The position numbers and the translations under genes are program-made. A stretch of 64,000 nt of DNA from Undibacterium sp. KW1 (GTDB lineage Bacteria > Pseudomonadota > Gammaproteobacteria > Burkholderiales > Burkholderiaceae_D), in the NCBI RefSeq assembly GCF_009937955.1, contig NZ_AP018439.1:4836001-4900000 (forward strand), in the 5' to 3' direction. The notes under the pieces are model-generated. The model saw only the letters and a program-made list of their open reading frames with translations. It was not told the origin of the DNA and searched no databases. Within the stretch, counting starts at the first letter, position 1. Every line of letters starts with the position of its first letter. Positions 7,622 to 31,811 of the stretch are shown here, one piece after another.

Positions 7622-8233
7622 CTATCTTCTTCTGTTATAAGAACTGCTGCTTTTTTCAGGATCAGGCAAACCCATTAATTTGACCTCGATATTCTTGGCG
7701 TCTTGTGGTGGCACTTTGTCGCTGAAGTTTTGCTTCAGATAGGACCACATATCTTTTTCCAGCACTTCACATTGCAAGACAGCGCGACTTTTGCGGGTAT
7801 TCCTGTGGCTATATTCGAGATCATCGACTTCTTGCGATGACTCTCTGTATTCTCTACGCTCCCTGTAAGTTCTATAGCTGGTGCTGACGTTGTCGTTGGC
7901 GCGGTCTTTGATGAACTGGTTTCTCGGTATGGTGCAGTTTTCCTTGAAGTTGGTCATCAGGGTGCGGTCTACGCTGACATCGCATTGACTGTACCTGTGC
8001 TCCAGCACCCAGCAGCTTTTGCCGGTATCGCGGTCTTTTTGCATGGCCGTGATCTTGCGCAGTGTGGCGTCGTTTTTGACTTCGGTCGCGTTGCTGCCTA
8101 TCTTGGCATTGCAGGGTTGGTCGGTAAATATCGTTTCACCGGAAGGCGTCACACATTTGCGCACCTCGGCCTGCGACAGGCTGGGCCAGGCAAAAACCAG
8201 GAAAGACAGACAAGCCAGAAATGTTTTTTTCAT
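7622..8233 (-). CDS. Exported DUF4124-like protein
   Basis: A 203-residue protein with a cleavable signal peptide (MKKTFLACLSFLVFAWPSLSQA, cleavage about residue 22). It is followed by VRKCVTPSGETIFTDQPC, the pattern of DUF4124, a small Cys-containing periplasmic domain common in betaproteobacteria. The rest is Arg/Tyr/Glu-rich (YRTYRERREYRESSQE) with several further cysteines (CWVLEHRYSQC, NCTIP, LQCE), so disulfides are likely. The function of DUF4124 proteins is not established. It is convergent with the MFS gene. Confidence 0.8.
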   Translation of the reverse strand: MKKTFLACLSFLVFAWPSLSQAEVRKCVTPSGETIFTDQPCNAKIGSNATEVKNDATLRKITAMQKDRDTGKSCWVLEHRYSQCDVSVDRTLMTNFKENCTIPRNQFIKDRANDNVSTSYRTYRERREYRESSQEVDDLEYSHRNTRKSRAVLQCEVLEKDMWSYLKQNFSDKVPPQDAKNIEVKLMGLPDPEKSSSSYNRRR

Positions 8234-8595
8234 AATATAAAGTGACGATGAGCAGATTTTATTGCCTTTTAATAGTTAAAATAGCAATGCGCGCGCGTAA
8301 AAAGCAATTGCAGATTATAGCCCAGGCTACAATTAGTTACATTTGAAATTGTGATGGTATTTGCTTATCTATTTTGTCAAGTCAGCACTACCAAGCGGAG
8401 CAACAAGCTGATATTCAGTAAAAATCGAGCCACGCTATCCATTCGGGCAGGCATAAATCCAGCACGTTGACTGCCTGTTTTTTCTTTGTTAGCACCGCCC
8501 CATATCACTGGAAACAGTGACGTAAGCGTTTACGTTAGCCAACGCGCAAACAAATTTGTCCTGCATTTGCAAGCAGATTTGTCGCGCCATTGATA
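8234..8595. other. Intergenic DNA, no feature recognised
   Basis: About 360 bp between the DUF4124 gene and the truncated MFS gene, carrying scattered A+T-rich stretches. I see no gene, RNA or clear repeat, only the presumed promoters of the two flanking genes. Confidence 0.5.
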
Positions 8596-9141
8596 ATGTA
8601 TATGCGATTACTATTGCGACTGCTGTCTCAGCTCCCCCGCAGATTCTCTGCCTCTCTCCGCATTTTCACGAATGCACCTCTTGCCACTGCTGTTGGCCTT
8701 TTCCTCTGTTTCTTTGTCGGCTTTGCTGATGGTGTACTCATGCCGTTTTTTGCCCTGTGGGCAGAAAAAGATGCAGGCATTTCTGCCAGCCGCATAGGCT
8801 TGCTGCTGGCCTGCTATTCTGGCGGCGAGTTGCTGGCCACGCCTTTGGTTGGCGGCATTGCCGACCGCGTCGGGCGCCGCCCGGTCTTGCTGATCTCCAC
8901 AGCAGGCGTAGGTATTGGCTTTGCGATACTCTACTTTACCCATGGCGTATGGGCATCTGCCCTGGTGCTGATCTTGATAGGTGCGTTTGAAAGCGTTTTG
9001 CACCCCACTATCTCTGCCGTCATCGCCGATACCATACCGGCTGAGCAGCACCGTTATTACTTTTCCATCGCACGCGTCATGTCGAGCGCAGGCCGTGTGG
9101 CTGGCCCGGCAGTGGGCTCTGTGCTGGCGCTGTTCGATGAT
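8596..9141 (+). pseudogene. N-terminal half of an MFS transporter, 3'-truncated
   Basis: From the ATG at 8596 the translation matches the N-terminal six-helix half of an MFS permease: FADGVLMPFFALWAEKDAGIS, GGELLATPLVGGIADRVGRRP (the MFS loop 2-3 signature), then helices to RVMSSAGRVAGPAVGSVLALF. At about 9142 the MFS similarity stops abruptly. An unrelated tail (GPILMSQSVESSMVFQF...) runs to the stop at 9232-9234. With only half the helices this is unlikely to be a working transporter. It is not the missing half of the fragment at 509-1012, which belongs to a different MFS subgroup. Confidence 0.75.
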
Positions 9142-9367
9142 GGTCCAATTTTAATGAGTCAATCTGTTGAATCCTCCATGGTGTTTCAATTTTATCCCTT
9201 GGGTAATCTGGTCGCTGCGGAAGTGCAATTTTGAAAGAAAGTCAGACTTAACCCAATTGCATACGATGCGAATGCAGCGTAACCAGATATCTGACGGGAT
9301 ATCCTTTATTGCCCGAGCGAGCCATAATACGAATTAATTACTTTCAGGTGCGAAAAAAAATTTATCC
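9142..9367. other. Foreign insertion or IS-end remnant
   Basis: The sequence that replaces the MFS 3' half begins GGTCCAATTTTAATGAGTCA, then has a related phrase (GTTTCAATTTTATCCCTTGGG). Short repeated GGTCxATTTTxxATGA-like phrases are typical of IS21-family ends, so a decayed insertion-sequence terminus is possible. No transposase is visible, so this remains speculative. Confidence 0.3.
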
Positions 9368-9631
9368 ATGAACTATAGCTCTCTCCATTTTTTCCTGGAA
9401 AGCCCATTGCTTCCATTAATGCCTTTTGTGCTCTTTTTGGGCATTTCGACGATTTTGCCGTTTCTTGGTGGCTGGGCCAGTCTGGCGACACATTATCGGG
9501 CGACGCAGGCAGCGACAGGTGAGCGTTTTCGCTTTGTTTCAGGCTCCATGGGTTCCAGGTTTTTCACGGTCAATTATGGCAGCTGTCTGTTTGTGTCGGT
9601 CAGAGATGTAGGTAAGATTAGCGCAGCGTAA
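9368..9631 (+). pseudogene. Truncated membrane-protein fragment cut by a palindromic repeat
   Basis: The 87-residue translation has an N-terminal membrane helix (LLPLMPFVLFLGISTILPFLGGW), then WASLATHYRA, GERFRFVSGSMG and VNYGSCLFVSVRDVG. In family members I recall, this last pattern continues into a second conserved part rich in hydrophobic residues and ending near PPLLIPW. Here the reading frame runs directly into the GTAAGATTAGCG...ATCGTACGC repeat, whose TAA supplies the stop. The gene therefore appears truncated by the repeat. The family has no established function. Confidence 0.55.
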
Positions 9632-9642
9632 TCGTACGCATG
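9607..9642 (-). repeat. Dispersed palindromic repeat, inverse orientation
   Basis: GTAGGTAAGATTAGCGCAGCG followed by TAATCGTACGCATG is the reverse-complement form of the repeat at 78 and 9781. It overlaps and ends the open frame of the gene fragment starting at 9368. Confidence 0.7.
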
Positions 9643-9780
9643 CTCAGCCGCAATTTTCTGTGCTGCTTGCAAATCACGGCTGCTTTATGATTTTTAATCA
9701 AGGATACATCACTCTCGTGGGGAGATGTACAGGCGGCGATCATCGGATTTTCTTGGCGTCTGTAGCTATTTTTGGTATCT

Positions 9781-9818
9781 CATGCGTACGATTACGCTGC
9801 GCTAATCGTACCTACTCA
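9781..9818 (+). repeat. Dispersed palindromic repeat
   Basis: CATGCGTACGATTACGCTGCG and TAATCGTACCTACTC form the same palindromic unit. Between it and the copy at 9607 (inverted orientation) about 140 bp of non-coding DNA is enclosed. Confidence 0.7.
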
Positions 9819-9848
9819 GGCTCACTCCAATCTCACACCAATTTCGTC

Positions 9849-10235
9849 TTATTTCGGACAACCGTCGAGTGGCGCGCGTGCTGATGGATCGACCATTTTA
9901 ATCAAGGTGGTAACCGCCTCTTTTTCACTCAGCCCTTGTGCAGATACCAAACCTAAGGCAGCTTTGGCCGATGGTTCGATTGTGGCGGATGAAAACCGGC
10001 CGCTGCATACCAGCCAAAAAATCACTTCACGCGCTTCTCCTATGGTGCCTACGCCATTCTTTGAGATGCTAGTCCCAAGTTCATAGAGCTGGCCTTCTGT
10101 CATGCCGACGTAACCCCCGGTCAATTGCAGAGCAGATTGCATACGGCGTTGATCACCAGCTCCTTGCATTGCAACCACCACAATAATGACGGCAAGGCCG
10201 ACAACGACGATTGCTAACCACTTTAATATTTTCAC
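9849..10235 (-). CDS. Small single-pass membrane-anchored protein
   Basis: A 128-residue protein with an N-terminal hydrophobic anchor (residues about 5-24, LKWLAIVVVGLAVIIVVVAM), then a small soluble domain with Met/Gly/Leu-rich helices and two cysteines (LVCSGRF and a near C-terminal DGCPK). Orientation is probably N-in with a periplasmic domain. I do not recognise the family. It is flanked by palindromic repeats on both sides and appears isolated. Confidence 0.65.
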   Translation of the reverse strand: MKILKWLAIVVVGLAVIIVVVAMQGAGDQRRMQSALQLTGGYVGMTEGQLYELGTSISKNGVGTIGEAREVIFWLVCSGRFSSATIEPSAKAALGLVSAQGLSEKEAVTTLIKMVDPSARAPLDGCPK

Positions 10236-10314
10236 ACTAAGTCTCTTTCATAAAATAGATACGATTAAATTACAGCTAAAGCGACTCGCAATGGTCAAAT
10301 AGTCCGAAAGGGAC

Positions 10315-10356
10315 GTGGGTACGATTAGCGCAAGCGTAATCGTAATCGTACGCATG
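10315..10356 (-). repeat. Dispersed palindromic repeat, inverse orientation
   Basis: GGTACGATTAGCGCAAGCG followed by TAATCG twice and TACGCATG. The extra six-base unit distinguishes this copy from the others. Confidence 0.65.
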
Positions 10357-10491
10357 TTGCAGACTTCCACTTGCTTCTGCAAGCATGGCTTCTTTGCGAT
10401 TACTAGTCAAGAATAAACCATGTTCATCTTGAGATGGACTGAAGATAACCATGCGATGTGCTTGATATCTTTTCTTTTGGGGACGCGGTTT

Positions 10492-10527
10492 TGTACGATT
10501 ACGCTTCGCTAATCGTACCTACGCGGG
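10492..10527 (+). repeat. Dispersed palindromic repeat
   Basis: TGTACGATTACGCTTCGCTA then ATCGTACCTACGCGGG. This is the cleanest copy in the window and the best reference for the family. Confidence 0.7.
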
Positions 10528-10544
10528 GGTTGCGAATTTCCTTG

Positions 10545-11192
10545 CTATTTCTGTTCAACAAAGTCGAGTGATATTTCGCTCAGATAAGGCTGTGCCTGGA
10601 TGACTGCTGGCAGGCTGGATTTGATTTTTTGTTCGCCAAGAATTGCCTTGGGCGTATTTTTATCAGTACGTAGCTGGAAGCGGAAATTTGGGGTGCAGTC
10701 GCTGGATGGTGTTGAAAAGGTGCCTTCATTGAAGCTGGTGACGTGGCCGCCATAATCCCAGCCAAAGCCGTACAGAATCAGCGGCTTGCCGTTTTGTTTT
10801 TCTACCGCCTGGATGGAATCAAGTATCTTCAAGCCTTGATAAGTCCACTGGCTTTTCTCAGCATTGATATTGACGGAAACAAGGCGGGTCATTGCGTCAT
10901 CATCAAAGTACACTTCTACTCTATAGGGCTTCATCTGGTTTTGCGGGTAGAGCACCAGTACTTTTTGAGTTGCTCCTTCCGCGCCATCCACTTCCTGCAC
11001 TGTGGTGTTTCCTGGATAGCGTTTCTTCAGGCTTCGTGCGGTATCGCCTTTCTTTACCGGGTTTTGGCAAGAGAGCGCGAGGTCAGCGGGGGCAGCAGGT
11101 TTATCGGCTGCATAGGCACAGGGGGAGCTGGCAAGCGCGATGGCTGCACATAAGAAAACAGCTGGTTTCAACAAAGAAGTCATGGCGCTCAT
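10545..11192 (-). CDS. Exported hypothetical protein
   Basis: A 215-residue protein with a signal peptide (hydrophobic core AVFLCAAIALASSPCAYA, cleavage near residue 28). The mature part starts with a short Pro/Ala linker, then LSCQNPVKKGDTARSLKKRYPGNTTVQEVDG and a beta-rich domain (RVEVYFDDDAMTRLVSVNINAE). A pair of Cys residues (LSCQNP and SSDCTPNF) could form a disulfide. It is probably periplasmic. The pattern of a small secreted protein tracking a substrate or protein partner is common, but I recognise no specific family. A second in-frame ATG lies at 11183. Confidence 0.75.
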   Translation of the reverse strand: MSAMTSLLKPAVFLCAAIALASSPCAYAADKPAAPADLALSCQNPVKKGDTARSLKKRYPGNTTVQEVDGAEGATQKVLVLYPQNQMKPYRVEVYFDDDAMTRLVSVNINAEKSQWTYQGLKILDSIQAVEKQNGKPLILYGFGWDYGGHVTSFNEGTFSTPSSDCTPNFRFQLRTDKNTPKAILGEQKIKSSLPAVIQAQPYLSEISLDFVEQK

Positions 11193-11923: not shown

Positions 11924-12093
11924 TGGGGGCTAGCAGCCTGGCGACTGTCCTCTACTTTAACCGGCTTTTTTTAGTGGAATATTCATGTCCGGACAAAACC
12001 TCCTTGGGCACTAAGAAAACATTAAAGTTGCGCTTGTAATAGCAGCTGTATACATCAATTACGACCGTCAAGCAGAGAAGAAGGAGTACTGTG

Positions 12094-15000
12094 ATGCCAA
12101 GTTCAAATTTAGGTGGGAATGTGTTGTCGGGGCAGTTCTCGGCTTCGGCGGGGGATATGGCTAGTGTGGCCGGAAGTGGCCGGCTTGATGCGGGTCTATC
12201 AGCTGAGTTCAACCGTGGAGTAGAGTTGAGTGCGCAAATCAATGCGCAAGTCGGCTTGAGTGCTGAGTTTAGTCATTTTATCAGTGCTGGAGTCACGGGC
12301 GAGACACATGCTTCTGCGAGCATTCAGGCTCAAATCCAGGCACCCATGAATCTTTTTGATGAAGCTGGTTTGTTCGTGCGTTTAAAGGCGGCAGCCGAGG
12401 TGGGTGCAGGAGTTCAGTTAGCGATTGGCTTGAGCGCCAGAGAATTTCTCGAGCAGGCCGCAAATATCCCCGGCATGGGTTCGCTGCCGCTGAGGCTGGT
12501 CAAGGTGCTGTTGGATGAAGTGGTTGTAGAAGGTGGTGTTCATGCCCAGGTAGCGGTTTCTGCAATGGCTTATGCCAATACGGTGGTGGGATTTCAGCTG
12601 GTCGAAACCAATAAAGGTGGCGTCGTTCAGAAGCCAGGATTCTACGTCGGTGCCGAGGCGGGAGCTGGCCTTGAAGCGGGTGCAGGATTTCGCGTCTTTG
12701 CTCAAGCCAGCTTGTCAGACCCAAGGCGTATGGTTAGACGATCAATTGACTTGCTGGCAGATGAGGCATTGAGTCAGTTAGCTGACATGGTGCGAGCGCA
12801 ATCACCTGCCGTCTCGGTGTCGATTGATGCTGCACGCAGCCCACTGAAAATGGCCTTACGGCTCTGCTATGAGCTGGGGGATTTGAGCGCGCAGCGGATA
12901 AAAACCGGTCAGACAGGCTTTACCACCAATGACTCTGGCCAAATGGCCTTGCGGACTCTGCAGGTCATCATTGATGAGGCGCAGCGATATATTTGCAGTC
13001 AAGTATGTGAGGCCGCAGTCACGCTCCTCAGTCAACAAATAAGCGCGATCGGTGTGCCGGCAACAACATGGCAATCTGCGCGATCGCAGCGTGAAGCTTT
13101 CGCCGCGCAATTGCGGGCAATACCGGACGAGCCTTTTGAGGCGACTACAGTCAATCGCACCTATTGGTCAGACCTGGTTAACAAAGGTGCCAGTTTGCTT
13201 GCTGCGCTGCTGAGCACTCAGCAGCGCCAATCAATCGCCGAACCGATCGCCATGCTGTGGGCGGGATCGCAATTACTTTTCGCGGTGATGGAACGCATAG
13301 CGCCCGCCAGTGCGAGCGCCACGTTTCTCGGGCACAATATCAGCAGACCTACGCCCTCATTCTCAGGGGCGAATTTGCAGCAACCGCCGTCGCTTATTGG
13401 TCAGCATATTCTGACGGCACTGAACATGTCCACGACTCACACCCTAGTCCACGCGGACTTAATCGCCTATCTGACTAGGGCGTCTGGGCTAACAAATCTG
13501 CGCCAGCGTCAGGCAGGCCTGGATCAGTTCCTGTCAATTTTCGAGTCTGTTATGCCATCAAACCTGCTCGTCAATTCGGCTGCCGAATTGTTTTTGAAGG
13601 GCGAGGCTGCGTTTGTCCCTAACGGCGGCACGTTTAATCCAGAGCGTGCCTTGCTTCCCTTGACCAATGCCTTGCGGGCATTTGTGGATGATCAAATTAA
13701 TGCTGTTATCACGCCTGCAGTGCGCAACTTGGGCCGTAACAATGATGATGTCGTGGTTTACTGGCGCGAAGTTTGCGTTCCATCACTTAACGCTGCGACG
13801 CAGATGGTGTTTGCTCAGGTGGAGAGCTGGAGTCGTCAGCAGTTTTCAGAGAAGGCGTTTCAAGAGGCGCTGTCTTCTGTTCTGCTGACATTTCTCGGTC
13901 GCAATTTAGTTGTCTTTGCCGATGTGATTACCCATTCCGCCCGCTCACAGATGCGAAGAATGTTAAACCAGGCGGCGGACAATGTAGGTGCACCGAACGG
14001 GCTGGCTAATACCTTGCGTCCAGTAACCGGTGGCTCAGCTGACGAGCTTGCGGACCTGCTCGAAGAAGTGCTGCGAATCGGCGGTGAAGTCTTTGGCCCA
14101 CTGCCGCCAGAGCAGCGCCAGCGCATGCGCAGTCTCATGTTTCGGGCGATACAACCCATCTCGCTTGAAAATCCTGGCACATTGATACAAAACTTAAGCA
14201 ATCCCGCCATGGTGCCTGATCCGCAGCTCTTGGCAGAGTTGGGTTTGGCAATGGGGAGCTTGATGGTTGAGCAATTTCTGGATTTCGTCGGACGTGTACT
14301 CGCACGTGTAGCTCAAATGATACTCGACGCTCTCAGCGACGCTGTTGAGGCACTCACCGAAGCCGTGCAGCAATGGTTAACTGATATTGGTAATGCCTTG
14401 GAAGATGCGCGCGAGCGTGTCCAGGCCATCGCGCGCGAGCTGCGCGAGGCATTGGATGCGATGCAAGACCATGTGCAAGATGAAGCAGAAGCGTTCACCG
14501 CGCTTATCACACAATTTAGTCGTCGCAAAACGCGCATGGCTCTTTTGGATGGCATCAGCAATCACGTCTACGACCAGGTCGCCAGCGCGCTACATTCGAT
14601 TCCCGGATACGATTGGTTGCCCTCTGTGGCGCGTAAAAGCGTCCGGCAAACTCTGCGCGGCGTTATTGAAAATCTCATCGAGTCCGAAGTCATGGATGAT
14701 TTGCTGGAGGCCTTGCGCACCGACCAGGCAGAAGCCAATCGCCTGTTGCGCGATGTGCGAGCACTGCGAGGCCGTAGTGGGTACACCAGAAAACTTTTGG
14801 ACCTCATGCTCGATTGGGCCATTGGACGGCTGCAAGAGCGGTTGCGCGATGGTTTTGTCATCAACATAAAATTCACGGTCTTCGATAATGATTTTAACCT
14901 CGGCGAGATAGCGCTTGGGGCGAGTGATTTACTCCTGGGTGTGTTGCGCGCCTTGCTTGAGGGTGTTGCGGATATAGTAGATGCCGTTGGAGAACTGTCT

Positions 15001-16266
15001 GATAAGGCGCTCGCGGCTCTTGCTGCCGAGAATTTGTTGGAGAGCAAGCAAGCCGAAGCCCGTGTTGTCGAGGAAACGGAGGCACGATTAACAGCGCTGC
15101 ATGCAGAGTCCCGCCCTCAATCGCGTCGCATCGAGATCATGGAGCCTGCCAATGGCGCATTCTGCGGCGACACGCCTGATTTTGAAATTCACCTTTACGG
15201 AGTCCCACTCTCCTTCATCAAGGAAGATGAAGGAGGCCGCGAACGGGTGGCACTTTTCTTGAACGGGCAAGAACTAGAGCTGAACCAATTCAGTATTCGG
15301 GAATTTGCCGCCACATCGACTGAATCGGTTCGATCAACTCCCCCCATCGATATCAATGCAATAGGGCGCTCGGTAAAATCGAAAGTGCCTTTCACATTGG
15401 CGCAAAATTTTTCGGCAACCGTGCTGAATCAGTCCTTACTGAAAGCACAGCGTGAAAAAACTGCATCTAAAACAATCAACCGCACAATCACCGGCGGGAT
15501 GCTCAAAGGGCCTGCACTAGCGAATGTCGATCTGGCCAGTGGCGGATTAGGGCGCCTGCGCCGTGTCGATCTTGGTGCCATTCGTAACAAGAATGATGCC
15601 GAAGCGGGTATAGTGCTGACGCGCAGAGTCAAGTCAACAGAGCTGCAGCAGGGGATTAATACCTTGGTCGTGGTCGTGGCCGATGGACACGGAGCGGCGT
15701 TGCGCTCAACCGCTACTTTCTTGAGTCCGCCACAAACCAAGGCACCGGTGACGTCATCCAATCCCAGAGATCCTGGTCGCCCCTCCAAGCTGCCTGCTTC
15801 CACCATGGAAGACTTGCGCGCCTGGCTGCCCAATGCCGAACATATCAAGCGCGCTGTTTCAAAAGGCCGTGACATTAACGCTGCAAAACCACGCGTCGTG
15901 CCACGCATTCCCACAGTATCCACCGCACCTATGGGGTGGTCGGCAGCGCCACCATTCGCACTATTTCCACTTAAGCAGGGGGCGCTTGTGCGTGGCCGAA
16001 TAATATCGGCAGATACAAAAGTATTGACACTTGCATTAGGACCAGGCGTCATTGGCAAATTGCCGATCAAGAATGCATCTCCCGATCAAACCGCCGTCCC
16101 GACCAAAACCGGGCAGATACTTTATGTTGAGGTTGTGAAGATATCGAACGCAAAGTCAATTAGCCTGAAGCTTGCTGCTGACAAGCCCCCCTCAATGGTG
16201 GTGGCGAGACCACTATCACCCTTGAAGTGGATGGCACCTGTACCAAGGCGAGGCCAAAGGCTGTGA
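12094..16266 (+). CDS. Giant protein with coiled region, Ig-like and S1-like C-terminus
   Basis: I prefer the ATG at 12094 (AAGGAG seven bases upstream) over the GTG at 12091, giving 1390 residues. There is no signal peptide or membrane helix. Residues about 1-230 are Gly/Ala/Ser-rich, with repeated GLSAEF and GAGLEAGAGF-type phrases. Residues about 230-1010 are mainly helical, with a coiled-coil-like stretch near 745-805 (ALEDARERVQAIARELREAL). Residues about 1012-1212 look like a beta-sandwich (RRIEIMEPANGAF ... GINTLVVVVADGHGA). Residues about 1290-1365 resemble an S1/OB fold (GALVRGRII ... GPGVIGKLPI ... GQILYVEVVKI ... SISLKLA). I know no family with this architecture. It is followed 67 bp later by an HExxH protein, suggesting a functional pair. 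Confidence 0.85.
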   Translation: MPSSNLGGNVLSGQFSASAGDMASVAGSGRLDAGLSAEFNRGVELSAQINAQVGLSAEFSHFISAGVTGETHASASIQAQIQAPMNLFDEAGLFVRLKAAAEVGAGVQLAIGLSAREFLEQAANIPGMGSLPLRLVKVLLDEVVVEGGVHAQVAVSAMAYANTVVGFQLVETNKGGVVQKPGFYVGAEAGAGLEAGAGFRVFAQASLSDPRRMVRRSIDLLADEALSQLADMVRAQSPAVSVSIDAARSPLKMALRLCYELGDLSAQRIKTGQTGFTTNDSGQMALRTLQVIIDEAQRYICSQVCEAAVTLLSQQISAIGVPATTWQSARSQREAFAAQLRAIPDEPFEATTVNRTYWSDLVNKGASLLAALLSTQQRQSIAEPIAMLWAGSQLLFAVMERIAPASASATFLGHNISRPTPSFSGANLQQPPSLIGQHILTALNMSTTHTLVHADLIAYLTRASGLTNLRQRQAGLDQFLSIFESVMPSNLLVNSAAELFLKGEAAFVPNGGTFNPERALLPLTNALRAFVDDQINAVITPAVRNLGRNNDDVVVYWREVCVPSLNAATQMVFAQVESWSRQQFSEKAFQEALSSVLLTFLGRNLVVFADVITHSARSQMRRMLNQAADNVGAPNGLANTLRPVTGGSADELADLLEEVLRIGGEVFGPLPPEQRQRMRSLMFRAIQPISLENPGTLIQNLSNPAMVPDPQLLAELGLAMGSLMVEQFLDFVGRVLARVAQMILDALSDAVEALTEAVQQWLTDIGNALEDARERVQAIARELREALDAMQDHVQDEAEAFTALITQFSRRKTRMALLDGISNHVYDQVASALHSIPGYDWLPSVARKSVRQTLRGVIENLIESEVMDDLLEALRTDQAEANRLLRDVRALRGRSGYTRKLLDLMLDWAIGRLQERLRDGFVINIKFTVFDNDFNLGEIALGASDLLLGVLRALLEGVADIVDAVGELSDKALAALAAENLLESKQAEARVVEETEARLTALHAESRPQSRRIEIMEPANGAFCGDTPDFEIHLYGVPLSFIKEDEGGRERVALFLNGQELELNQFSIREFAATSTESVRSTPPIDINAIGRSVKSKVPFTLAQNFSATVLNQSLLKAQREKTASKTINRTITGGMLKGPALANVDLASGGLGRLRRVDLGAIRNKNDAEAGIVLTRRVKSTELQQGINTLVVVVADGHGAALRSTATFLSPPQTKAPVTSSNPRDPGRPSKLPASTMEDLRAWLPNAEHIKRAVSKGRDINAAKPRVVPRIPTVSTAPMGWSAAPPFALFPLKQGALVRGRIISADTKVLTLALGPGVIGKLPIKNASPDQTAVPTKTGQILYVEVVKISNAKSISLKLAADKPPSMVVARPLSPLKWMAPVPRRGQRL

Positions 16267-16333
16267 GACAGTGCGATAACAAGCTGCAAATTAATTGAGC
16301 GCAAGTAATACCACTCTCGGAGAGGAGATATTC

Positions 16334-17677
16334 ATGAGTAACTTAACTGAAACTTTTCAAAAGGCCGCCGATTTCTTTTGCGGACCAGCACCGGGTAGCA
16401 CCTACGTGCCTTTTGCATTTGAAGTTGCAGATCGTAGTTCACTCCCGATTCGTTATTCAAGTTATGGGGTTCCTGGTTTGACGGGCGATGCTTCGGATTT
16501 TGTGCCAACTGATGCGGTTTCATCATTTTTGCAAACATCTGCAGATGTTAGTTGGCAGAATGATCCTATCGGCGGCGGCTTTGGCGAAACCAGATTGTCG
16601 CTATTGTGTGGTTATGGAACTGGTGTGCGTGTAGTTCCAGATGAAGAAATAGATGCTTTAATCGATGTGGGAACTATTGATGTTCTCCTAAAAGCCCCTC
16701 CTCACTATCTCTTTCGTACCGCGCTAAAAGACAGATATGTTTTTCGAGTGTGTTCTGCCGCTTTTCAGGACGGAATATTGTTTTTGGCTTCAGATGAGCC
16801 TGATTTACGTGAACTCGGAAATCCTGATCTTGTTGGGCTATATCCGCTCAATATGCAACAAATTCAAATTGCCACGAAACGAGATCCAGCCGACATTCTG
16901 CACACAATTAAACACGAATTACTTCATTATGTATTCGACAAAAGTTTTAATATATTAGGTAATGTTAGGCATGAAAACCCATCGTTGGATCCCCCATCTA
17001 TAGCTGTAGATCACTTCGTTATCGAGGTGGTAATGGAGAAACTTCAGGCGCAGACTCTTTGTAAACAAGGTTTAATAACGCATCTCAGTAAGCCTATGTG
17101 GTCGGCGAATACTTATAGATTTACAGCAAAGTTTGATGTTCCTTTTTTAATGGAAATTGAGGAGAAAGATGCAGTACTGGTGAAGTTTGTACATGCGACA
17201 ACGTTCAGCGTCATATCATTTGGCGGCATAGATTTTCCTCTGTTAATAGAAAGGCATCGCTTGGCATGGGATGAAAATGATCATATTGGCATCATGTCCG
17301 TACTCGATGACCCTGACTTCGCCAGTGCAGCTGTCGCCGCTCAGTTAATTCCTCTTTTGCCCCAACCAGGATTTCCTGAATTGGAATCCATCCCCCTGCT
17401 GTTCACGCCAGAGATGTACCAAGACATGGCATTTCTCCATGCCCAGCGTTACGCCATGTATGTGCACGGTATTTATGAGCTGAGTCTTATTTCGAAGAGG
17501 GAACGGAAAACGATGAACATCTTGTTTGCAAATGCTGACATAAGCGAGGGCGCTATGCTACGTAACTTTGGATGGGCCGCTCGTATGGATGCTTTTTTCA
17601 CTGAATTTTTTGAAGCTTTGATTACTGATCCCATGGAAGGCGTGCTCGCAATTGAGCGGCGACTGCGCAAGCCATAG
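16334..17677 (+). CDS. Putative zinc metallopeptidase (HExxH)
   Basis: The ATG at 16334 has GGAG upstream with good spacing, and an upstream in-frame TTG lacks one. The protein has 447 residues and no signal peptide. At residues 194-198 it has HELLH within DILHTIKHELLHYVFD, matching the zincin HExxH motif where two His bind zinc and Glu is the general base. Downstream acidic and His candidates for a third ligand include HENP (about 217) and VDHFVIE (about 229-236). Overall fold and substrate are unknown. Base composition is A+T-richer than the preceding giant gene. The tight spacing suggests one transcript with that gene, and the pair lies between the duplicated segments. Confidence 0.75.
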   Translation: MSNLTETFQKAADFFCGPAPGSTYVPFAFEVADRSSLPIRYSSYGVPGLTGDASDFVPTDAVSSFLQTSADVSWQNDPIGGGFGETRLSLLCGYGTGVRVVPDEEIDALIDVGTIDVLLKAPPHYLFRTALKDRYVFRVCSAAFQDGILFLASDEPDLRELGNPDLVGLYPLNMQQIQIATKRDPADILHTIKHELLHYVFDKSFNILGNVRHENPSLDPPSIAVDHFVIEVVMEKLQAQTLCKQGLITHLSKPMWSANTYRFTAKFDVPFLMEIEEKDAVLVKFVHATTFSVISFGGIDFPLLIERHRLAWDENDHIGIMSVLDDPDFASAAVAAQLIPLLPQPGFPELESIPLLFTPEMYQDMAFLHAQRYAMYVHGIYELSLISKRERKTMNILFANADISEGAMLRNFGWAARMDAFFTEFFEALITDPMEGVLAIERRLRKP

Positions 17678-19745: not shown

Positions 19746-19849
19746 AAGTTTGGCAAACAAGAGCTAGTCTGAAAACACTGACTATGCCTCCAAGCCAAAG
19801 AACGTGTTTTGCTTCAGTCACCATCATTCCACCCCGGATAGGAGTCATC

Positions 19850-21301
19850 ATGAGCAACGCAGCATCAACACCAGACACCAGCCTGTTTAGCCTGCAATTG
19901 CCGCAACTCAGTCTGCCTGATTCAGACAATGCCGAAGAAGAGTATGCGTATTCGCTGGGCATCCAAGCCTACATCTATGGCTTTCCCTGGATTTACAATG
20001 CGCAATTGCGCTGGTTGTGGGCCAGCGAAGCAGGCAAGCATTTTTCAGAAAAGCATGGGCTGCCTGACCTGTATGCGCCTATCAATACTTTTCATCACGC
20101 AGCCGTACTGGCTACTCCGGCGGCACAAACGGGGGGCGCGCCCAATACCGATACGCTGTACTCCACTGCCTGGCTCGACATCGCCGAAGACCCCATCGTT
20201 CTCTCGGTTCCAGCTGTCACCGACCGGTATTTCGTGATCGAAATGGTGTGCATGGACGCCGACAACTTTGCCTATGTGGGTACGTACGCCACAGGTACAG
20301 AAGCAGGCAACTACCTGATTGCACCACACCACTGGAACGGTACGGTGCCAGATGGCGTGGCTGATATCTTGCCACGCTCGCGCACTGATACTGTATTCCT
20401 GTTGGGGCGCACCGGAGTCAACGACAGCAGCACGACCGAAGTTCAAGCGGCCAATGAGGTCCAGCAGCAATACATTTTGACGCCGCTGGCAGACTGGCCC
20501 AATGCGCCCACGCCATATAAAAAACCGGTGATGATACCCTGGGGTGTCGACTACAACCATACCGCAGGAGCATGGCGCACCATGAACGACGCCATGACAC
20601 AAAACCCGCCCGGTTTGCCACCGGGGATCAACCAGGAGCAATTGCTAAACCTCTTTGCCACGATTAACATCGGCCCGAACCAGCATGTAGAGCAACAATC
20701 CGAAGCTACCCGCATCGGCCTTCAGCGGGCGGCGAGAGACGGGCTGGACTTGCTTAAAAAGTTCAGCAAGTCCCGTGGAAAATCGGTGAATAACTGGACG
20801 TATCCACCGCAAGACGTAGGCCGCGCCGGGCAGTACAGCGACTTTATTACCAGGGCAGCGGTGCAATCACTGTCAGGCATCTGCGCCAATGACCCGGACG
20901 AAGCGGTGTATATCAACACCAGCATCGACAGCCAGGGCAATGAATTGAATGGTTCCAATTGCTATCGCATGACTTTTTCGGCAGGTAATTTCCCACCGTT
21001 CAATGCAGACATGCATGGCTTCTGGTCAGTCACCTTGTATAACTCGACTTACAACCTGTGCCCTGGCTCAAGCAATTATTCCATCAACGGCTATTATCCA
21101 GAATTTTCAACAACCGATGCCGAGGGCGGCATCACCATCGTGATCCAAAGCGACAAGCCCGACAACTTACCTGCAGGAAGTTACTGGTTGCAGTCGCCCA
21201 GTGCCGAAAGTTTCTTTTTGATTTTGCGGGTCTATGTTCCCGGCCCTACTGTCAGCTTCACGCAAACCTATAGCCCGCCAGCGATTGATCTTGCAAGTTA
21301 G
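19850..21301 (+). CDS. DUF1254/DUF1214 domain protein
   Basis: The ATG at 19850 follows AGGAG. The product has 483 residues. The N-terminal third (AYSLGIQAYIYGFPWIYN, then TPAAQTGGAPNTDTLYSTAWLDI, PVVT-like DRYFVIEMV) is the DUF1254 pattern. The C-terminal part (about 380-480: NCYRMTFSAGNFPPFNADMHGFWSVTLYN, SDKPDNLPAGSYWLQSP) is DUF1214. These two domains commonly occur together in exported or cytoplasmic proteins of unknown function. No signal peptide is evident here. The TAG stop is made by the first bases of the palindromic element at 21299. Confidence 0.88.
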   Translation: MSNAASTPDTSLFSLQLPQLSLPDSDNAEEEYAYSLGIQAYIYGFPWIYNAQLRWLWASEAGKHFSEKHGLPDLYAPINTFHHAAVLATPAAQTGGAPNTDTLYSTAWLDIAEDPIVLSVPAVTDRYFVIEMVCMDADNFAYVGTYATGTEAGNYLIAPHHWNGTVPDGVADILPRSRTDTVFLLGRTGVNDSSTTEVQAANEVQQQYILTPLADWPNAPTPYKKPVMIPWGVDYNHTAGAWRTMNDAMTQNPPGLPPGINQEQLLNLFATINIGPNQHVEQQSEATRIGLQRAARDGLDLLKKFSKSRGKSVNNWTYPPQDVGRAGQYSDFITRAAVQSLSGICANDPDEAVYINTSIDSQGNELNGSNCYRMTFSAGNFPPFNADMHGFWSVTLYNSTYNLCPGSSNYSINGYYPEFSTTDAEGGITIVIQSDKPDNLPAGSYWLQSPSAESFFLILRVYVPGPTVSFTQTYSPPAIDLAS

Positions 21302-21480
21302 AACTCATTTCATCAATAGGATGAGTGCGAACAAGACGATTTGGGATGCAGTGCAAGGCCTTAGGTGTGTACCCTGTGCAGCTAAGGCGTCCGCCTTTGC
21401 AAGTGCGTGGTAACAAAACTGCACGCTGCAATGCGCCCAAATCGTCAGTTCCCGGAGGGTATGCCTCATAACGCGCGCTG
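21299..21480 (+). mobile_element. Incomplete MITE-like palindromic element
   Basis: Starts TAGAACTCATTTCAT and follows the copy at 25050 for about 180 bp, including GATTTGGGATGCAGTGCAAG and ATGCGCCCAAATCGTCAG. After GCCTCATAAC the similarity stops, so the right half and right terminal repeat are missing. The TAG is the stop codon of the preceding gene. Confidence 0.7.
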
Positions 21481-21694
21481 GACTTGCCCCGTTGATGAGC
21501 GCAAACACAATTCGGGGCCACGTCATTCCTGGATACATTCTCTTGACTTGGAGATGTCGCGATGTTGAGCCTGACTTCCATGTTGACGATCTTCTGAACT
21601 TACTATCTTTAAAGTCTTTGTGGCTCATAAGAAATTTCGCTTTCACAGTGTTGCTCTTTGGATATAAATCTGCCCATTCAGTCATAGAGAGATC
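21481..21694. other. Intergenic DNA before the membrane gene pair
   Basis: No gene was recognised. It presumably contains the promoter for 21695-25052. Confidence 0.4.
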
Positions 21695-21970
21695 ATGAAA
21701 GAAAAAGATTACCACGAAAAAATTTCACAACTACATTCTGAATGCGGGTGTCGTTTTGCTGCAATTCTATTTCTCATAACAGGGGTGGCTTATCCTTTGG
21801 TTCTCAGCGTGGACGCATCAGGTTTCGGTTTGTCAGGCTATATCGCATGCTGGATTCTAAGCATGTTCATATCTGCTGTTGTTGGCAAGATTCTCGGAAT
21901 AAGCAACGCCCGATTCAAAATCTCATTGCTAAGAAAACGTTGCAAGGAGGCGGGAAATTATGTCTGCTGA
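21695..21970 (+). CDS. Small two-helix membrane protein
   Basis: A 91-residue protein with GAGAGATC before the ATG. Two hydrophobic segments (about residues 21-38, FAAILFLITGVAYPLVLS, and 46-66, GYIACWILSMFISAVVGKIL) predict an inner-membrane hairpin. Both tails are basic and charged. The final 11 bases overlap the start of the next gene, which has its own AAGGAGG site inside this gene. The two are thus translationally coupled and probably form a complex or shared pathway. I recognise no family. Confidence 0.7.
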   Translation: MKEKDYHEKISQLHSECGCRFAAILFLITGVAYPLVLSVDASGFGLSGYIACWILSMFISAVVGKILGISNARFKISLLRKRCKEAGNYVC

Positions 21971-24900
21971 TAACTGCATTTATGAGGCAAAAAAGTGCAT
22001 TGAGCACGCAACAAAGAAAACAAAGATTTGTGTAGAGAACGAGGATAGGGGTTATAGAAAATGCACGGAAGAAGAAGATAGAGGATACAACGCCTGTTGT
22101 GACTGGCAGCCATGCAAATTATTTTGCAGTGTGCTGACATGGGTGTCCAATTGGGTGTGCACCGCTTCAGTCTGGATAGCCAAAATTGTTTGTATTGCCT
22201 GGGAATGGTTAGTCACGACGGTATGTATTGTATTCGCGACAGTCACTTTTACCGTGTGTGTTGTTTTGAAAATGATTGTTTCGCTCATCAGCCCAATCGT
22301 TCTGATGGTCTCCGGCCCGTCGCGAATAGTTAATTCAACCATAGGCAGGCAGGTTCCAGGAACAAAGAAAGTGTTTACAGATTCACGAAGCCCTGCATCG
22401 GCAATCGATTATGACGATCTTTCTGATCGCCTTCAATTTTGCGATGGTGGCCGCTATTTAAGATTCCGTTTGGATGATGAAGGTAGCGTAAGCTGGAGCA
22501 ATTCCTTTCCGATTGATAGTTTCAGTACTTTCGCACCTAACGGAGCAGTCTTTAATTCTCCACCCAATCCAGATGGCAACCCAATTTCAGTCAGCTACGA
22601 CGAGTTAAGGGCAGGAAGCTGGAGTGTCAAGGAAAGCACTCCCAAATTGGAGATGTTAGCTGCATCTTCAGATCGTGTTTTCGCCAAGGAGCGCAGTAAA
22701 GATATTTTTTACCTGGCACTTCCCACACAAGTCTTCCTTCATAAAACCATCAATGGCGAGCTGGTCAAGTTGCCGCAATCTTTCTTCAAGATCGATCCGG
22801 AATTAGGAACACAAGACGAAAATGTCGATGATTTACTGTTACACCTGAAGGTGTCCGAAGATGACGAGAGTCACCTCGCCACGGAGAGGTTTCCGCTTTT
22901 TCGTTCGCTCTTTCGCGTATTTAGTTCGCCTCTAAAATACCTTGCTCCTATTCGAAATTTGTTCCAATCAATGGTCGTGCAAGTTCATCCATTCGTCTGG
23001 GTTAAGTTCGACACACGGCCTGGTCGGGGAAGTTCAGATACACCAGAATCCTTTCCATCTTATGAACACGTCGTTTATAGGAAAGATGGACTATTTGGTA
23101 TCTCAAAAACCGAAGCTTATCGTTCGATACTGTTTGATAAAGTACTCGATATAGGCGTTGGTTTGTCTCATTTGCACGAACAATATGAACCAATTTACGG
23201 AGGTGAGCTGGATAATCTCGATGCGCCCTCACCCTTTTCTTTGGTTTCAAATGAAGCTCTATATAGATTCGCTAACGGACCAATACAAGATACCGGCGGT
23301 TGGGTCGACGGGACATGTATCTATTATGTGTTGGCGCAACTGCCTCATTCAAAAGATCCTGGTTCTGATTCCCCGTCAGATTCTCCCGACGATCAGTTGA
23401 GTAGCGACAACAAATTATTCCAGGATAGGTATTGCATACTTTGGGTCGACGAGCAATTGGCCTTTACTGAAAGATGGAGAGTATTGGGCCTCCGTGACAC
23501 GGAATTTACCTCCCCTGTAAAACCCATGATTGCAATATTAGGCGAAAACTCAGAAGCCTTCAGCTTCAATCCAATGACTTTTATGGATCCTTTTCAGCAA
23601 GGTTACATCAGAGCCTTTAGTCGTATGGCGGTCGCTCGTCAAATAATAATCGTCAACGGTTTTGATCGGAGCAAAGGAGAAGCTGGAAAACACCGATTAT
23701 TCTCCATCCATTTTTCATGGCCCACGATGGATAGAACCTGGCGAGTTCGGGATCTTCCAATGGATACGAATCCGCGATTAATGGACGACCATCATGATGT
23801 TGAGGAAGTACAGCGAATCTTAAGGGAGGAGCAGCATTCCACGGTGTTGCCGCAGTCAATTGGTTTGCGCGAAGACATGACCTTGCATCTTTTGGGAAGC
23901 CATCGGGTTGGTGGAAAACTCAGGCTTGGCAGATGGGTGCAGAAGTACTTACCACCAGATAATATGGAAATACCTTCTGCTCAAGAACTTCTCAATGGGG
24001 ACCTTGCTGACTTGTCGCGAGGATACAATCATCCCTGGACTTTCTACACAGAGAAGGCTTTTCTGAAAATGCATCAAGCCTATAGTCATTTCGGTGTATA
24101 TGAAAAAGTTGAGAGCCGCAATCAATACTACCAAGTAGACATACTTAAAACTGCAATGAATGAAGCTACGATTGAAGAGGCGACATGGCTAGATAGGGAG
24201 AAAAGCGCAAAAATAAATCGACTTGAATTAAATTATGCGAAGCTTGCCACGGTAGTTGATGTCGCCGCATACACAATCCCGATAACTCTTTTATTAACGG
24301 TGGCAGCAGCCATTTTTAGTGAAAGCTCTTGGGGTGCTTTAATTATGCTGCTTGAGCTACTCGCAATTCAAGCTGGCCTTGCTATCGCTTACAGCATCGA
24401 GTTGCGTAGTTTCCCGTCTCTGTATGAAGATATTGTTCGTTTCAAAATAAAATTCACCAGTTTAGGCCCCATTCTTCTCTATCTGGATAAGCGAGAAGAT
24501 AAGACTATCAGTCTCGATGGAATTCCGCTTTCATTGACGCTATTCAATGAGCAAGACGTTTCTCAAACCTTAAGTGTGATACTGACAAAATCTGTAAGAA
24601 ATTCACGTTCCATTGCCGATAAAGGCATCCTCACGCCACCAGAAATTCTAAGCGCAACTATTACCAAAATTTTCGACTTGGCGGGAAACTTAACCCAGGT
24701 GAAAGTAGATTTTTTCTCAGCACGTGCTGTAACAGAATTTGGATCAGACTCGGATTTCACAAATTGGTTTTCGCTGAACGTTGATCAAGTGCGTATTGGT
24801 CTACCTGATTCTTTGGGTGGAGTCACTTTATTATTCTCCTCACAACGCGAGGGAATAATTAAGCGAGTAGATCGAAGCAATCAATTTTCATTCGCGTGGA

Positions 24901-25052
24901 CTCCAGTAAGGAGCGATCCACTTTATCCTGAGTTGAATGAAATTCTTTCAGAGGATGGACAAATTTTGAAAGGGGTCAGCTTGTGGTTCATTGGCATTAC
25001 AGGGCTTGCTAACATTCCAGGAAAAATAGTATTCGCCACAACAATCGAGTAG
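21960..25052 (+). CDS. 1030-residue membrane protein with N-terminal cysteine hendecads
   Basis: ATG at 21960 after a strong AAGGAGG site. Cysteines occur exactly every 11 residues at 13, 24, 35, 46 and again at 56, 67, 78, 89, 100. The first run is hydrophilic (CxEEEDRGYxxC-type units). The second is hydrophobic with Trp at the sixth position (61, 72, 83) and Val/Ile before each Cys, and would cross or enter the membrane. An 11-residue period is the signature of right-handed (hendecad) coiled coils. Residues about 110-760 are a soluble, unrecognised region. Two transmembrane helices follow at about 764-815, then a soluble C-terminal domain. The gene is A+T-richer than most neighbours, and its TAG stop coincides with a MITE-like element. 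Confidence 0.85.
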   Translation: MSADNCIYEAKKCIEHATKKTKICVENEDRGYRKCTEEEDRGYNACCDWQPCKLFCSVLTWVSNWVCTASVWIAKIVCIAWEWLVTTVCIVFATVTFTVCVVLKMIVSLISPIVLMVSGPSRIVNSTIGRQVPGTKKVFTDSRSPASAIDYDDLSDRLQFCDGGRYLRFRLDDEGSVSWSNSFPIDSFSTFAPNGAVFNSPPNPDGNPISVSYDELRAGSWSVKESTPKLEMLAASSDRVFAKERSKDIFYLALPTQVFLHKTINGELVKLPQSFFKIDPELGTQDENVDDLLLHLKVSEDDESHLATERFPLFRSLFRVFSSPLKYLAPIRNLFQSMVVQVHPFVWVKFDTRPGRGSSDTPESFPSYEHVVYRKDGLFGISKTEAYRSILFDKVLDIGVGLSHLHEQYEPIYGGELDNLDAPSPFSLVSNEALYRFANGPIQDTGGWVDGTCIYYVLAQLPHSKDPGSDSPSDSPDDQLSSDNKLFQDRYCILWVDEQLAFTERWRVLGLRDTEFTSPVKPMIAILGENSEAFSFNPMTFMDPFQQGYIRAFSRMAVARQIIIVNGFDRSKGEAGKHRLFSIHFSWPTMDRTWRVRDLPMDTNPRLMDDHHDVEEVQRILREEQHSTVLPQSIGLREDMTLHLLGSHRVGGKLRLGRWVQKYLPPDNMEIPSAQELLNGDLADLSRGYNHPWTFYTEKAFLKMHQAYSHFGVYEKVESRNQYYQVDILKTAMNEATIEEATWLDREKSAKINRLELNYAKLATVVDVAAYTIPITLLLTVAAAIFSESSWGALIMLLELLAIQAGLAIAYSIELRSFPSLYEDIVRFKIKFTSLGPILLYLDKREDKTISLDGIPLSLTLFNEQDVSQTLSVILTKSVRNSRSIADKGILTPPEILSATITKIFDLAGNLTQVKVDFFSARAVTEFGSDSDFTNWFSLNVDQVRIGLPDSLGGVTLLFSSQREGIIKRVDRSNQFSFAWTPVRSDPLYPELNEILSEDGQILKGVSLWFIGITGLANIPGKIVFATTIE

Positions 25053-25330
25053 AACTCATTTCATAAATAGGGATGAGTGCGAACAAGGCGATTTGGGATG
25101 CAGTGCAAGGCCTCAGTTGTCTATCCTCTGCAGCTAAGGCTCATGCCTTAGCAAAGGACGCAACGCAGCAATGCGCCCAAATCGTCAGTTCCCGAAGGGT
25201 TTGCCTCATAACACGTATCAGACAACATTGGATTTATTGAAAATAGTGCCACAATTGACAACCACAAACGTGTTACCGGTCCGTGTTATGAGGCAAACGC
25301 ATCTCATTCATATTTATGAAATGAGTTCTA
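25050..25330 (+). mobile_element. Complete MITE-like element with terminal inverted repeats
   Basis: The left end TAGAACTCATTTCATAAATA is the perfect complement of the right end ...ATGAAATGAGTTCTA. The similarity extends to about 27 bp. Inside, GTTTGCCTCATAACAC (about 25199) pairs with GTGTTATGAGGCAAAC (about 25284-25299). A further hairpin is made from GATTTGGGATGCAGTGC and GCAATGCGCCCAAATC. The element ends in TA on both sides, which suits a TA-target transposon. No transposase is present, so it would be non-autonomous. Confidence 0.75.
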
Positions 25331-25633
25331 AATCATTGCAGTTCAAGGATGTGTAAACCTGCAAGATCGCGGCTATGCAAAAATAGGCGTCAGGTTATAG
25401 ATTAAGACAATTCCACGCTAAGGAAATGTGCGAAAGTAAGACCTGACAATCATCTACAGACATATCAAATTCAGGCAATGGCCCTGCGCGTGAGATTATC
25501 AATGGTAAGCAGGCAGCTCATGCATATATCCTTTGTTCTGTGGAACTTTCTCGGCTAAAAATGGCCTGAAGCAAACCGTCCGTAAAGTAATCACTACGGG
25601 CATCGCTTGAGAATTTCCATTAACAGATTGCCT
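25331..25633. other. Intergenic DNA, nothing recognised
   Basis: About 300 bp of mixed composition between the MITE-like element and a gene remnant. No gene or repeat was identified. Confidence 0.4.
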
Positions 25634-25888
25634 ATGAATAAGCTACTGCCAGCCCTTGTTCTGTCTTTTTCGCAAATTGCTTTTATAGAAGCAGCGCAAG
25701 CAGTGCTCTCTGACCCTGGCCCCGGGGCTGCAACACCGGCACCGTCAATCGAAGCACCGCGTGACCGGGCGTTTCATGGCGTCATGACACTGGATGTGGA
25801 TGCCTCTGATACGGTGCACAAGATCATCCGTGTGCGGCAAAGCATAGGTGCCCCCGGCGAGACGTCGCCAACACTGGCAGGCCTTTAG
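25634..25888 (+). pseudogene. N-terminal remnant of an M61-family metallopeptidase
   Basis: From the ATG at 25634 there are 84 residues: a signal peptide (MNKLLPALVLSFSQIAFIEA), a Pro/Ala linker, then HGVMTLDVDASDTVHKIIRVRQSI. This closely follows the opening of M61 glycyl-aminopeptidase-type proteins (x-L-x-VDATD-x-x-R-IF-x-V-x-x-x-IPV). In those the next feature is LLYPQWxPGNH, and the zinc site comes hundreds of residues later. Here the frame ends at ETSPTLAGL. The whole catalytic part is absent, so this is a decayed gene. Confidence 0.6.
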
Positions 25889-26370
25889 TACGACAGGGAG
25901 GCGCAACAACGACAGGTTAATTTTGCAACAGCCTCCAAGTAATTACGTGCAGTGCCTCCCATGCGTGCAAGGCATCTATACGATGCGGTGGTTGGGCGAT
26001 GTCATCGTGAATCTGCATTAACATCAGGGCAACTCGTCATCTCTTCGATTCAAGCCAGGACAACCGTCGCACATTGGTAGCGTGGCAGGCAGGGCTTTGT
26101 CGGGTGAGTTTAATCATGGAAGCCGCGCTAGTAGTCAAAACATAAAGCAGACACATGACCGTTCATCGCCAGAAACCTATCAGTGGTGCATAAAAACGCA
26201 GAAACAAAATACAGTGCAACCAAACACACAAATGGATACAAATTGTTGCAACTTTAAAAACATCAAGCGGCTAAGATGGCCCACCCAATCTGAACTTGAC
26301 TAGCATGACTTTGCCTCACACTGCTGTATCTGCAATTTCAATAAACATGCGTACGAGAATATGTACGACA
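25889..26370. other. Intergenic DNA without recognised features
   Basis: About 480 bp with no supported gene. The lost remainder of the M61-like gene is not visible here in any frame. Confidence 0.4.
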
Positions 26371-31328: not shown

Positions 31329-31811
31329 ATGTCACGATCTGAATTTGAAATAGCTAAAAACTTGAGTGACTTTGGCCCAATCACAGAAGACAAGGTTGAG
31401 CGATTTGAGCATTTAATAGCCGAGGCAAGCGATGGTTTAAGTATCTCAATGATCTTGCCATTGCTATTAACCTTAGATGACAAGTGTGAATTTGACGAAG
31501 TCATGTTCAGCGTAGTGCACGCCGTGGAAAGATACCCTGCCGAGTCCTACTTCGCGGTTCTAGTGGAAAACATATCTGCTATTTGGAATAATTCCCCGCG
31601 TTGGTGTGAAATCCTGCATACAAGAATAATCAATTCACCATCTTCTTTTACTCATTTTATAAACGCGTTCTTGCTCATGGACAGCAACATCAAAGCATTA
31701 GAGACTCACATACTCAAAAAAATATCAGGCAAAGAAAAATTTACTGATCGTTGCATGACAGGTATTCACTCTCTTGCTAACAAAATACCTATGCAAAGTG
31801 CCAGCACTTAG
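31329..31811 (+). CDS. Imm30-like immunity protein (putative)
   Basis: A 160-residue soluble helical protein. The segment VMFSVVHAVERYPAESYFAVLVENISAIWNNSPRWCEILHTRIINSP resembles the Imm30 immunity family, in which an E-x-Y/F helix is followed by a PxWxEILxxRILN motif. Imm30 proteins are predicted immunity factors for polymorphic toxins. No toxin is adjacent, so it would be an orphan. The call is by eye and moderate. The gene is bracketed by REP-like repeats at 31017 and 31816. Confidence 0.6.
   Translation: MSRSEFEIAKNLSDFGPITEDKVERFEHLIAEASDGLSISMILPLLLTLDDKCEFDEVMFSVVHAVERYPAESYFAVLVENISAIWNNSPRWCEILHTRIINSPSSFTHFINAFLLMDSNIKALETHILKKISGKEKFTDRCMTGIHSLANKIPMQSAST

Follow-up and report, generated by a model that had tools for sequence, protein, structure and literature searches.

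Background

In the sections of PMC12114033 that treat CHCHD4/Mia40, the protein is described as an antiparallel helical hairpin stapled by disulfides whose paired cysteines add up to a constant sum (64-97 and 74-87, sum 161), with a CPC motif that oxidises its substrates, and a few CHCH-type proteins are noted to carry one CX10C. LXG effectors of the type VIIb secretion system combine a helical N-terminus with a variable toxin and small partners, according to the part of PMC9600955 that deals with them, and helical repeats of 11 residues are found in the hendecad coiled-coil families of Martinez-Goikoetxea and Lupas (2023), as summarised in an extract of PMC11676326. Here we describe a locus of Undibacterium sp. 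KW1 that can be compared with these systems. It consists of a gene for a 1030-residue protein with a ladder of cysteines near its N-terminus and an overlapping gene for a small membrane protein with a CGC motif, both within a stretch of 64,000 nucleotides (contig NZ_AP018439.1, positions 4,836,001 to 4,900,000, forward strand), which is hereafter called the window.

The ladder would resemble the twin CX9C arrangement of the CHCH proteins in its proposed antiparallel hairpin with constant-sum pairing by disulfides, and the CPC motif can be set beside the CGC of the partner protein. However, the C-x9-C spacing is not found, the arms of the ladder being built of C-x10-C, and there are four to eight candidate pairs where CHCH proteins have two; the ladder is moreover bacterial, and its CGC lies at a membrane helix. 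The best match of a profile of the ladder module to PDB chains had an E-value of 0.84. We read the ladder hairpin, by analogy, as a much extended CHCH-like structure and not as a CHCH member. With the LXG effectors, the ladder proteins share an overall plan but no sequence, and the Lap partners of LXG proteins are soluble helix-turn-helix proteins whereas the partner described here has two transmembrane (TM) segments. No LXG or WXG domain was matched by Pfam in the window protein or in the relatives P0016, P0034, P0072, P0106 and L133, nor by NCBIfam in the same set less P0106. The motif CGC is a vicinal dithiol that serves in CXC mimics of thiol-disulfide isomerases; the partner has it in common with these mimics, but differs in having two TM segments, the first of which adjoins the CGC.

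The cysteine ladder

The cysteine ladder is real and conserved. Cysteines of the 1030-residue protein stand at positions 6, 13, 24, 35, 46, 47, 52, 56, 67, 78, 89, 100, 161, 453 and 492. They include both runs reported in a preliminary description of the window (13/24/35/46 and 56/67/78/89/100), which are spaced by 11 exactly as claimed, as well as C6, C47 and C52, which were not listed there; the tryptophans it gave at 61, 72 and 83 are also present. Residues 1-116 contain 12 cysteines with seven pairs at spacing 11. Of 50,000 shuffles of the segment, none reached this number at spacing 11, and about two did (4e-5) when all periods between 3 and 24 were allowed. Together with the homologues, the shuffles rule out chance as the origin of the period and bear out the hendecad periodicity proposed earlier. 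At least six in-register cysteines are kept in 28 of 71 whole-protein homologues and in 37 of 37 relatives with a protease domain (see below), so the ladder is conserved in these but not in the remaining 43 of the 71 homologues. AlphaFold2 (AF2) models of the window protein and of its relative P0072 are both helical across the ladder. Homologues without periodic cysteines and a non-helical region had been named as the outcome that would make the period a coincidence, and that outcome was not what we found.

The gene and its parts are as follows, with the basis of each assignment in brackets; block values are of the predicted local distance difference test (pLDDT).

21960..25052, + strand, ladder-propeller gene, 1030 amino acids (open reading frame list, homologue searches)
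21966..22097, + strand, arm 1, residues 3-46, hydrophilic helix with ladder cysteines 13/24/35/46 (AF2 helix 3-45, block pLDDT 51-72)
22098..22124, + strand, turn, residues 47-55, CDWQPCKLF (AF2 break 46-49)
22125..22310, + strand, arm 2, residues 56-117, hydrophobic helix with ladder cysteines 56/67/78/89/100 and tryptophans 61/72/83 (AF2 helix 50-117, block pLDDT 44-70)
22323..24119, + strand, payload, beta-propeller-like domain, about residues 122-720 (predicted fold)
24234..24395, + strand, residues 759-812, helical hairpin of TM-like character, with gaps in many homologues (AF2 model, hydropathy, homologues)
24396..25049, + strand, C-terminal beta-rich region, residues 813-1030 (AF2 model)

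Arm 1 is highly charged and has a single hydrophobic stripe at positions 1/4/8 of the repeat. Hydropathy segments were found at about 71-124 and 762-815, which gives partial support to the earlier label of a membrane protein; the first 260 residues of the relative L133 have no such segment at the same cut-off, and arm 2 of some relatives is not a canonical TM stretch. The rest of the protein had been called unrecognised. This stands for the sequence, which has no match in Pfam, NCBIfam or the PDB sequences, but not for the fold, since the core is propeller-like in its predicted structure. The fucose-binding six-bladed propeller lectins AAL/AFL can be compared with it but differ in sequence (about 10% identity).

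A probable two-armed hairpin

Homologues show a two-armed module composed of a mostly hydrophilic ladder, a turn and a hydrophobic ladder. The turn reads CCDWxPCSWxC in many relatives and is similar in the propeller modules, in the protease P0107 and in the phosphoesterase L133. The AF2 model of P0072 (pLDDT 91.6) has helices at 2-69 and 74-155 separated by a break at 70-73, just past the last cysteine of arm 1, and the window protein is likewise modelled as helix-break-helix at lower confidence. We assembled 71 ladder proteins selected for at least six in-register cysteines; runs of at least four cysteines at spacing 11 occur in all of them. The repeat pattern of a hendecad is thus present, in stretches that both AF2 models show as helical and with a hydrophobic stripe in arm 1; the coiled-coil contact is putative.

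The cysteine numbers of the two arms were compared by a gap rule, in which the turn is placed at the off-register gap, and which was applied to the 34 of 71 proteins whose register breaks exactly once. Equal numbers of cysteines in the two arms were obtained for 29 of these (4/4 in four, 5/5 in one, 6/6 in three and 7/7 in 21). Four differ by one (the window protein and its near-copy P0001 with 4/5, and two with 6/7), and one differs by two (6/8). When the sequences were reduced to ten clusters (below 45% ladder identity), the summed arm difference was 2, where the null gives 40.4 on average and 0 of 20,000 simulations gave such a value, although the null is a simple one in which the break may be placed anywhere and the sequences share ancestry. 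The other 37 proteins comprise 22 without an odd gap and 15 with several. Of the unbroken ladders, 20 of 22 are divided 7/7 by a third hydropathy rule, and P0080 and P0088 come out as 6/8 under the second, a change-point rule. The nine proteins P0013-P0021 split 7/7 or 8/8 at a 14-residue gap.

Several observations limit the case for matched arms. Arms are unequal or irregular in P0007, P0008, P0011 and P0024, and P0041 and P0046 have two candidate gaps each. Under the first hydropathy cut the arm counts were negatively correlated (rho -0.21, n=71; -0.45 in 30 propeller types), and under a change-point hydropathy rule the correlation was non-significant (rho 0.21, n=58). The third hydropathy rule, which returns 7/7 for most proteases, gives 5/4, 5/3, 6/4 or 8/6 for the window protein and several propeller types. 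Furthermore, the gap rule was adopted after these hydropathy results were known; it replaced the hydropathy rules because the latter were judged to misassign the junction unit.

The hydropathy contrast between the arms, seen in most ladder proteins, is smaller in P0011-P0021 and P0024. In P0011 and P0024 the spacing of the N-terminal cysteines switches between 5 and 6 residues (CTSFTNCDSIE units), an alternative route to period 11.

Payloads and distribution

The hairpin module is carried by three payloads, namely the propeller-like domain of the window, a metzincin-like protease (37 proteins) and a PF04185 phosphoesterase (three loci). When a profile was run on 398 genomes of the phylum, it matched a second protein, L009, through its N-terminus only, and a protein search with that N-terminus retrieved 37 relatives, most of about 340 amino acids, with 13-15 ladder cysteines followed by a protease that has the zinc motif HExxHxxGxx(H/D) and the fold of metzincins. 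In an alignment of 37 rows (36 of the 37 relatives, P0076 being omitted, and L009), each of the 14 cysteines in the P0072 ladder is kept in 37/37 rows, and a tryptophan follows at +3 from the cysteine in 37/37 rows for 11 of the 14 units. The third type was found in L133 when 369 genomes of the class were searched with a profile (PF04185 at 238.5 bits against a cut-off of 23). L145 and L146, from a search of 127 genomes of the family of G1146, to which the Niastella locus L004 belongs, were assigned to the same type by eye. Between payload types, the modules match each other in BLASTP (propeller P0041 against protease P0107, 8e-27; phosphoesterase L133 against P0072, 5e-20, and against P0006, 1e-17), but these values overstate the certainty because they come from single pairs of repetitive, oddly composed sequence.

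The module is rare. Counting the genome of the window, strong matches were found in 2 of 399 genomes of the order, 2 of 369 of the class and 2 of 398 of the phylum, with a third, weak match set aside in the order and a third, low-complexity match in the phylum. It was seen in 0 of 112 genomes of the phylum of G1147, where two low-complexity matches in one genome were set aside. The ladder gene had no match in 59 other genomes, 35 of them of the same genus, and of nine candidates that a word search with its first 125 residues gave, only its own near-copy passed. As the distribution is patchy, the ladder gene was likely gained horizontally. G+C content is 43.5-46% over 21001-26000, but this is weak evidence of origin because other parts of the window dip equally low (43.5-45%).

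In viral contigs, seven cysteines at spacing 11 occur in at least 119 stretches, and none of the ladder kind was seen among the 31 frames listed, which comprise BspA-like repeats, low-complexity sequence and the like. The propeller profile had no match in these contigs, and the protease profile matched one distant protease (24% identity) in a frame without a ladder. Phages, queried with the L009 module alone, gave no match, and plasmids gave none for the L009 module or the window protein. The weak profile matches L131, L138, L141 and L142 were rejected as chance, low-complexity or stop-bearing frames.

Among the relatives P0047-P0071, several have a VENRSS..FWIWQ-like N-terminal domain in place of the ladder, and some have FIMAH, LTD or Fn3-like domains. 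The homologue at L002 (Foetidibacter, 7995-11091) is split over two frames of 899 and 167 amino acids.

The CGC partner gene

Upstream of the ladder gene, and coupled to it by the overlap described earlier, which measures 11 nucleotides, lies the gene for the small membrane protein, which also contains the likely ribosome-binding site of the ladder gene.

21695..21970, + strand, CGC two-TM partner gene, 91 amino acids, with CGC (residues 17-19) immediately ahead of TM1 and a basic C-terminus (sequence, hydropathy, homologues)
21944..21950, + strand, likely ribosome-binding site of the ladder gene, AAGGAGG, within the partner gene (sequence read by eye)

A CGC gene lies near all six ladder loci for which genome context is available. 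It overlaps the ladder gene by 4 nucleotides at L002, lies upstream by 18 nucleotides at L133, by 11 at L145 and by about 200 at L146, and is found downstream, with one gene between, at L134. The CGC protein of the window is weakly similar to those of L002 (1e-7) and L146 (2e-8); it has no BLASTP match to that of L133, which is grouped with it only through the multiple alignment, its gene position, its size and the CGC motif. It has no Pfam or NCBIfam match above cut-off, and none of the six partner members matched a named PHROG family (two unnamed families were reached at E 0.08-0.09).

A profile built from the six members and run on 80 genomes matched six, that is, the five donors of its sequences and one of the 75 others, G1146. 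There (L153, 8611-10100) the CGC gene follows by 56 nucleotides a gene for a protein that reads as a hydrophilic helix leading through a CNWWQLC junction into a hydrophobic stretch, with a zincin-like end that has HExxH (HEIGHACWLYHH, NLM). This neighbour is possibly a degenerate hairpin with a fourth payload, a reading made by eye because the ladder profile gives no match in it and kinship of its end with the ladder proteases is unsupported (probability 1.7 and E 0.028 in hhalign; Matrixin of Pfam at E 0.069, short of the cut-off). The end is zincin-like by motif only. If the reading is right, the partner tracks the hairpin and not the payload. The CGC profile had no match in the four other genomes with ladderless propellers.

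Proposed mechanism and alternatives

We lean, with modest confidence, towards a reading in which residues 1-117 form a helical hairpin whose cysteine ladder zips the arms together, which serves as a generic N-terminal carrier or anchor of swapped payloads and which has the CGC protein as its dedicated docking or thiol-exchange partner. Hydrophilic arm 1 would fold back antiparallel onto hydrophobic arm 2. Because 11 residues make three helical turns, the ladder cysteines of each arm should lie on one face, so that cysteines equidistant from the turn would face each other, in the window protein as 46-56, 35-67, 24-78 and 13-89. Such pairs would zip the arms, most simply as disulfides after oxidation, and cover one face of the hydrophobic arm, whose other faces may bind the membrane or the two-TM partner. 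The payloads would act outside the cytoplasm, judging from their type (metzincin, phospholipase-C-like phosphoesterase) and from the FIMAH, LTD and Fn3-like domains of the ladderless propeller relatives, families that are mostly extracellular. Of this reading, the calculations bear out the ladder, the matching of the arms under the gap rule, the helix-break-helix models, the exchange of payloads and the linkage to the CGC gene, and the remainder is proposed. Hairpins fused to differing enzymes near the gene of a small membrane protein suggest an undescribed protein-handling module.

The preliminary description had proposed a coiled-coil bundle in or at the membrane, which we take as one continuous homo-oligomer with cysteines lining its core. 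The 11-residue period would suit it, as would the hydrophobic arm of the window protein and the core-like positions 1/4/8 in arm 1; yet arm 1 is highly charged, and a continuous rod leaves unexplained both the helix break at the junction in the two models and the matched cysteine counts under the gap rule. As the runs resemble a helix-turn-helix whose arms have equal or nearly equal counts, the ladder more likely pairs within the chain, and we find the bundle the less fitting model and distinctly improbable. A metal ladder would use the same arm pairing, with facing cysteines of one or two hairpins as two- or four-thiolate sites for zinc, copper or another metal and CGC as a metal-handling CxC, so that the module stores, delivers or is stapled by metal. 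Reduced thiols would suit the likely position of CGC: the CGC protein ends basic and, since basic ends point to the cytosolic side under the positive-inside rule, CGC is expected on that side. Docking, metal or release functions fit this position better than periplasmic oxidation does. No second type of metal-binding residue is prominent in the repeat units, however, and the payloads have no common metal theme, which makes a metal ladder rather unlikely.

The CGC protein could also be a holin-like release factor, the ladder proteins folding in the cytoplasm and leaving by lysis. It is small, with two TM segments and a basic tail, the gene order at L145 and L146 is TcA, CGC, ladder, with an N-acetylmuramidase gene following in L146, and Tc toxins can exit through lysis by the type 10 secretion system, according to the portion of PMC10847048 on that system. 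The six partner members match no named PHROG family, though holins are diverse, a Pfam scan of 15 window proteins showed no lysis gene, and that CGC is conserved and linked to a cysteine ladder points to chemistry; we regard release by lysis as unlikely. Alternatively, the hairpin might be the killing part, a toxin that inserts into membranes, with the CGC protein conferring immunity and the payloads being secondary. A partner that tracks the module and not one payload would agree with this, and the hydrophilic and hydrophobic arms might suit a shielded inserting hairpin, but the zinc-site residues of the protease are as invariant as the ladder, so that the payload is under selection too, and a toxin with its immunity protein seems very doubtful.

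Our reading of a zipped carrier hairpin has a bolder form, which we put forward tentatively and think less likely than not to hold: a bacterial thiol-zipper system in which the membrane-bound CGC protein closes and opens a swappable hairpin, whose redox state sets when the hydrophobic arm and payload engage the membrane. It is kept as the bold case because the basic ends of the CGC protein favour the cytosolic side. If true, it would give bacteria a counterpart of Mia40 with its CHCH substrates that mounts or delivers surface or effector enzymes. One module connects three classes of protein that are otherwise unrelated with a small membrane protein that lacks annotation, and searches of Pfam, NCBIfam and PDB sequences with proteins that bear it returned no family for it. 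Up to eight evenly spaced inter-helix cysteine pairs are predicted; if these are disulfides, the hairpin would be, to our knowledge, the longest regular disulfide-stapled one and would add something new to the thiol chemistry of bacteria. The ladder with its CGC gene may also serve as a marker for discovering unknown payload proteins.

Neighbouring genes

At L145 (6362-15964) and L146 (151-10132) a TcA gene, the CGC gene and the ladder-phosphoesterase gene stand in the same order, the CGC gene coming directly after that of TcA, and in L146 a 162-amino-acid gene with a hydrophobic segment and the N-acetylmuramidase gene lie downstream. Tc toxin was rejected as a general partner, as TcA was found in 5 of 14 genomes tested and not in that of the window, and the 14 control genomes of the family gave no match. 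TcA genes are also carried by G1147, G1148 and G1149, three of the five genomes with ladderless propellers.

PADLOC returned no defence-system match for six proteins of the window. Upstream of the CGC/ladder pair, the window encodes a 1391-amino-acid protein on the same strand (12091-16266), with no Pfam match above cut-off, a 460-amino-acid protein with a HELLH motif and no Pfam match (16295-17677) and a DUF1254/DUF1214 protein (19784-21301). An Imm30-type immunity protein is encoded at 31329-31811.

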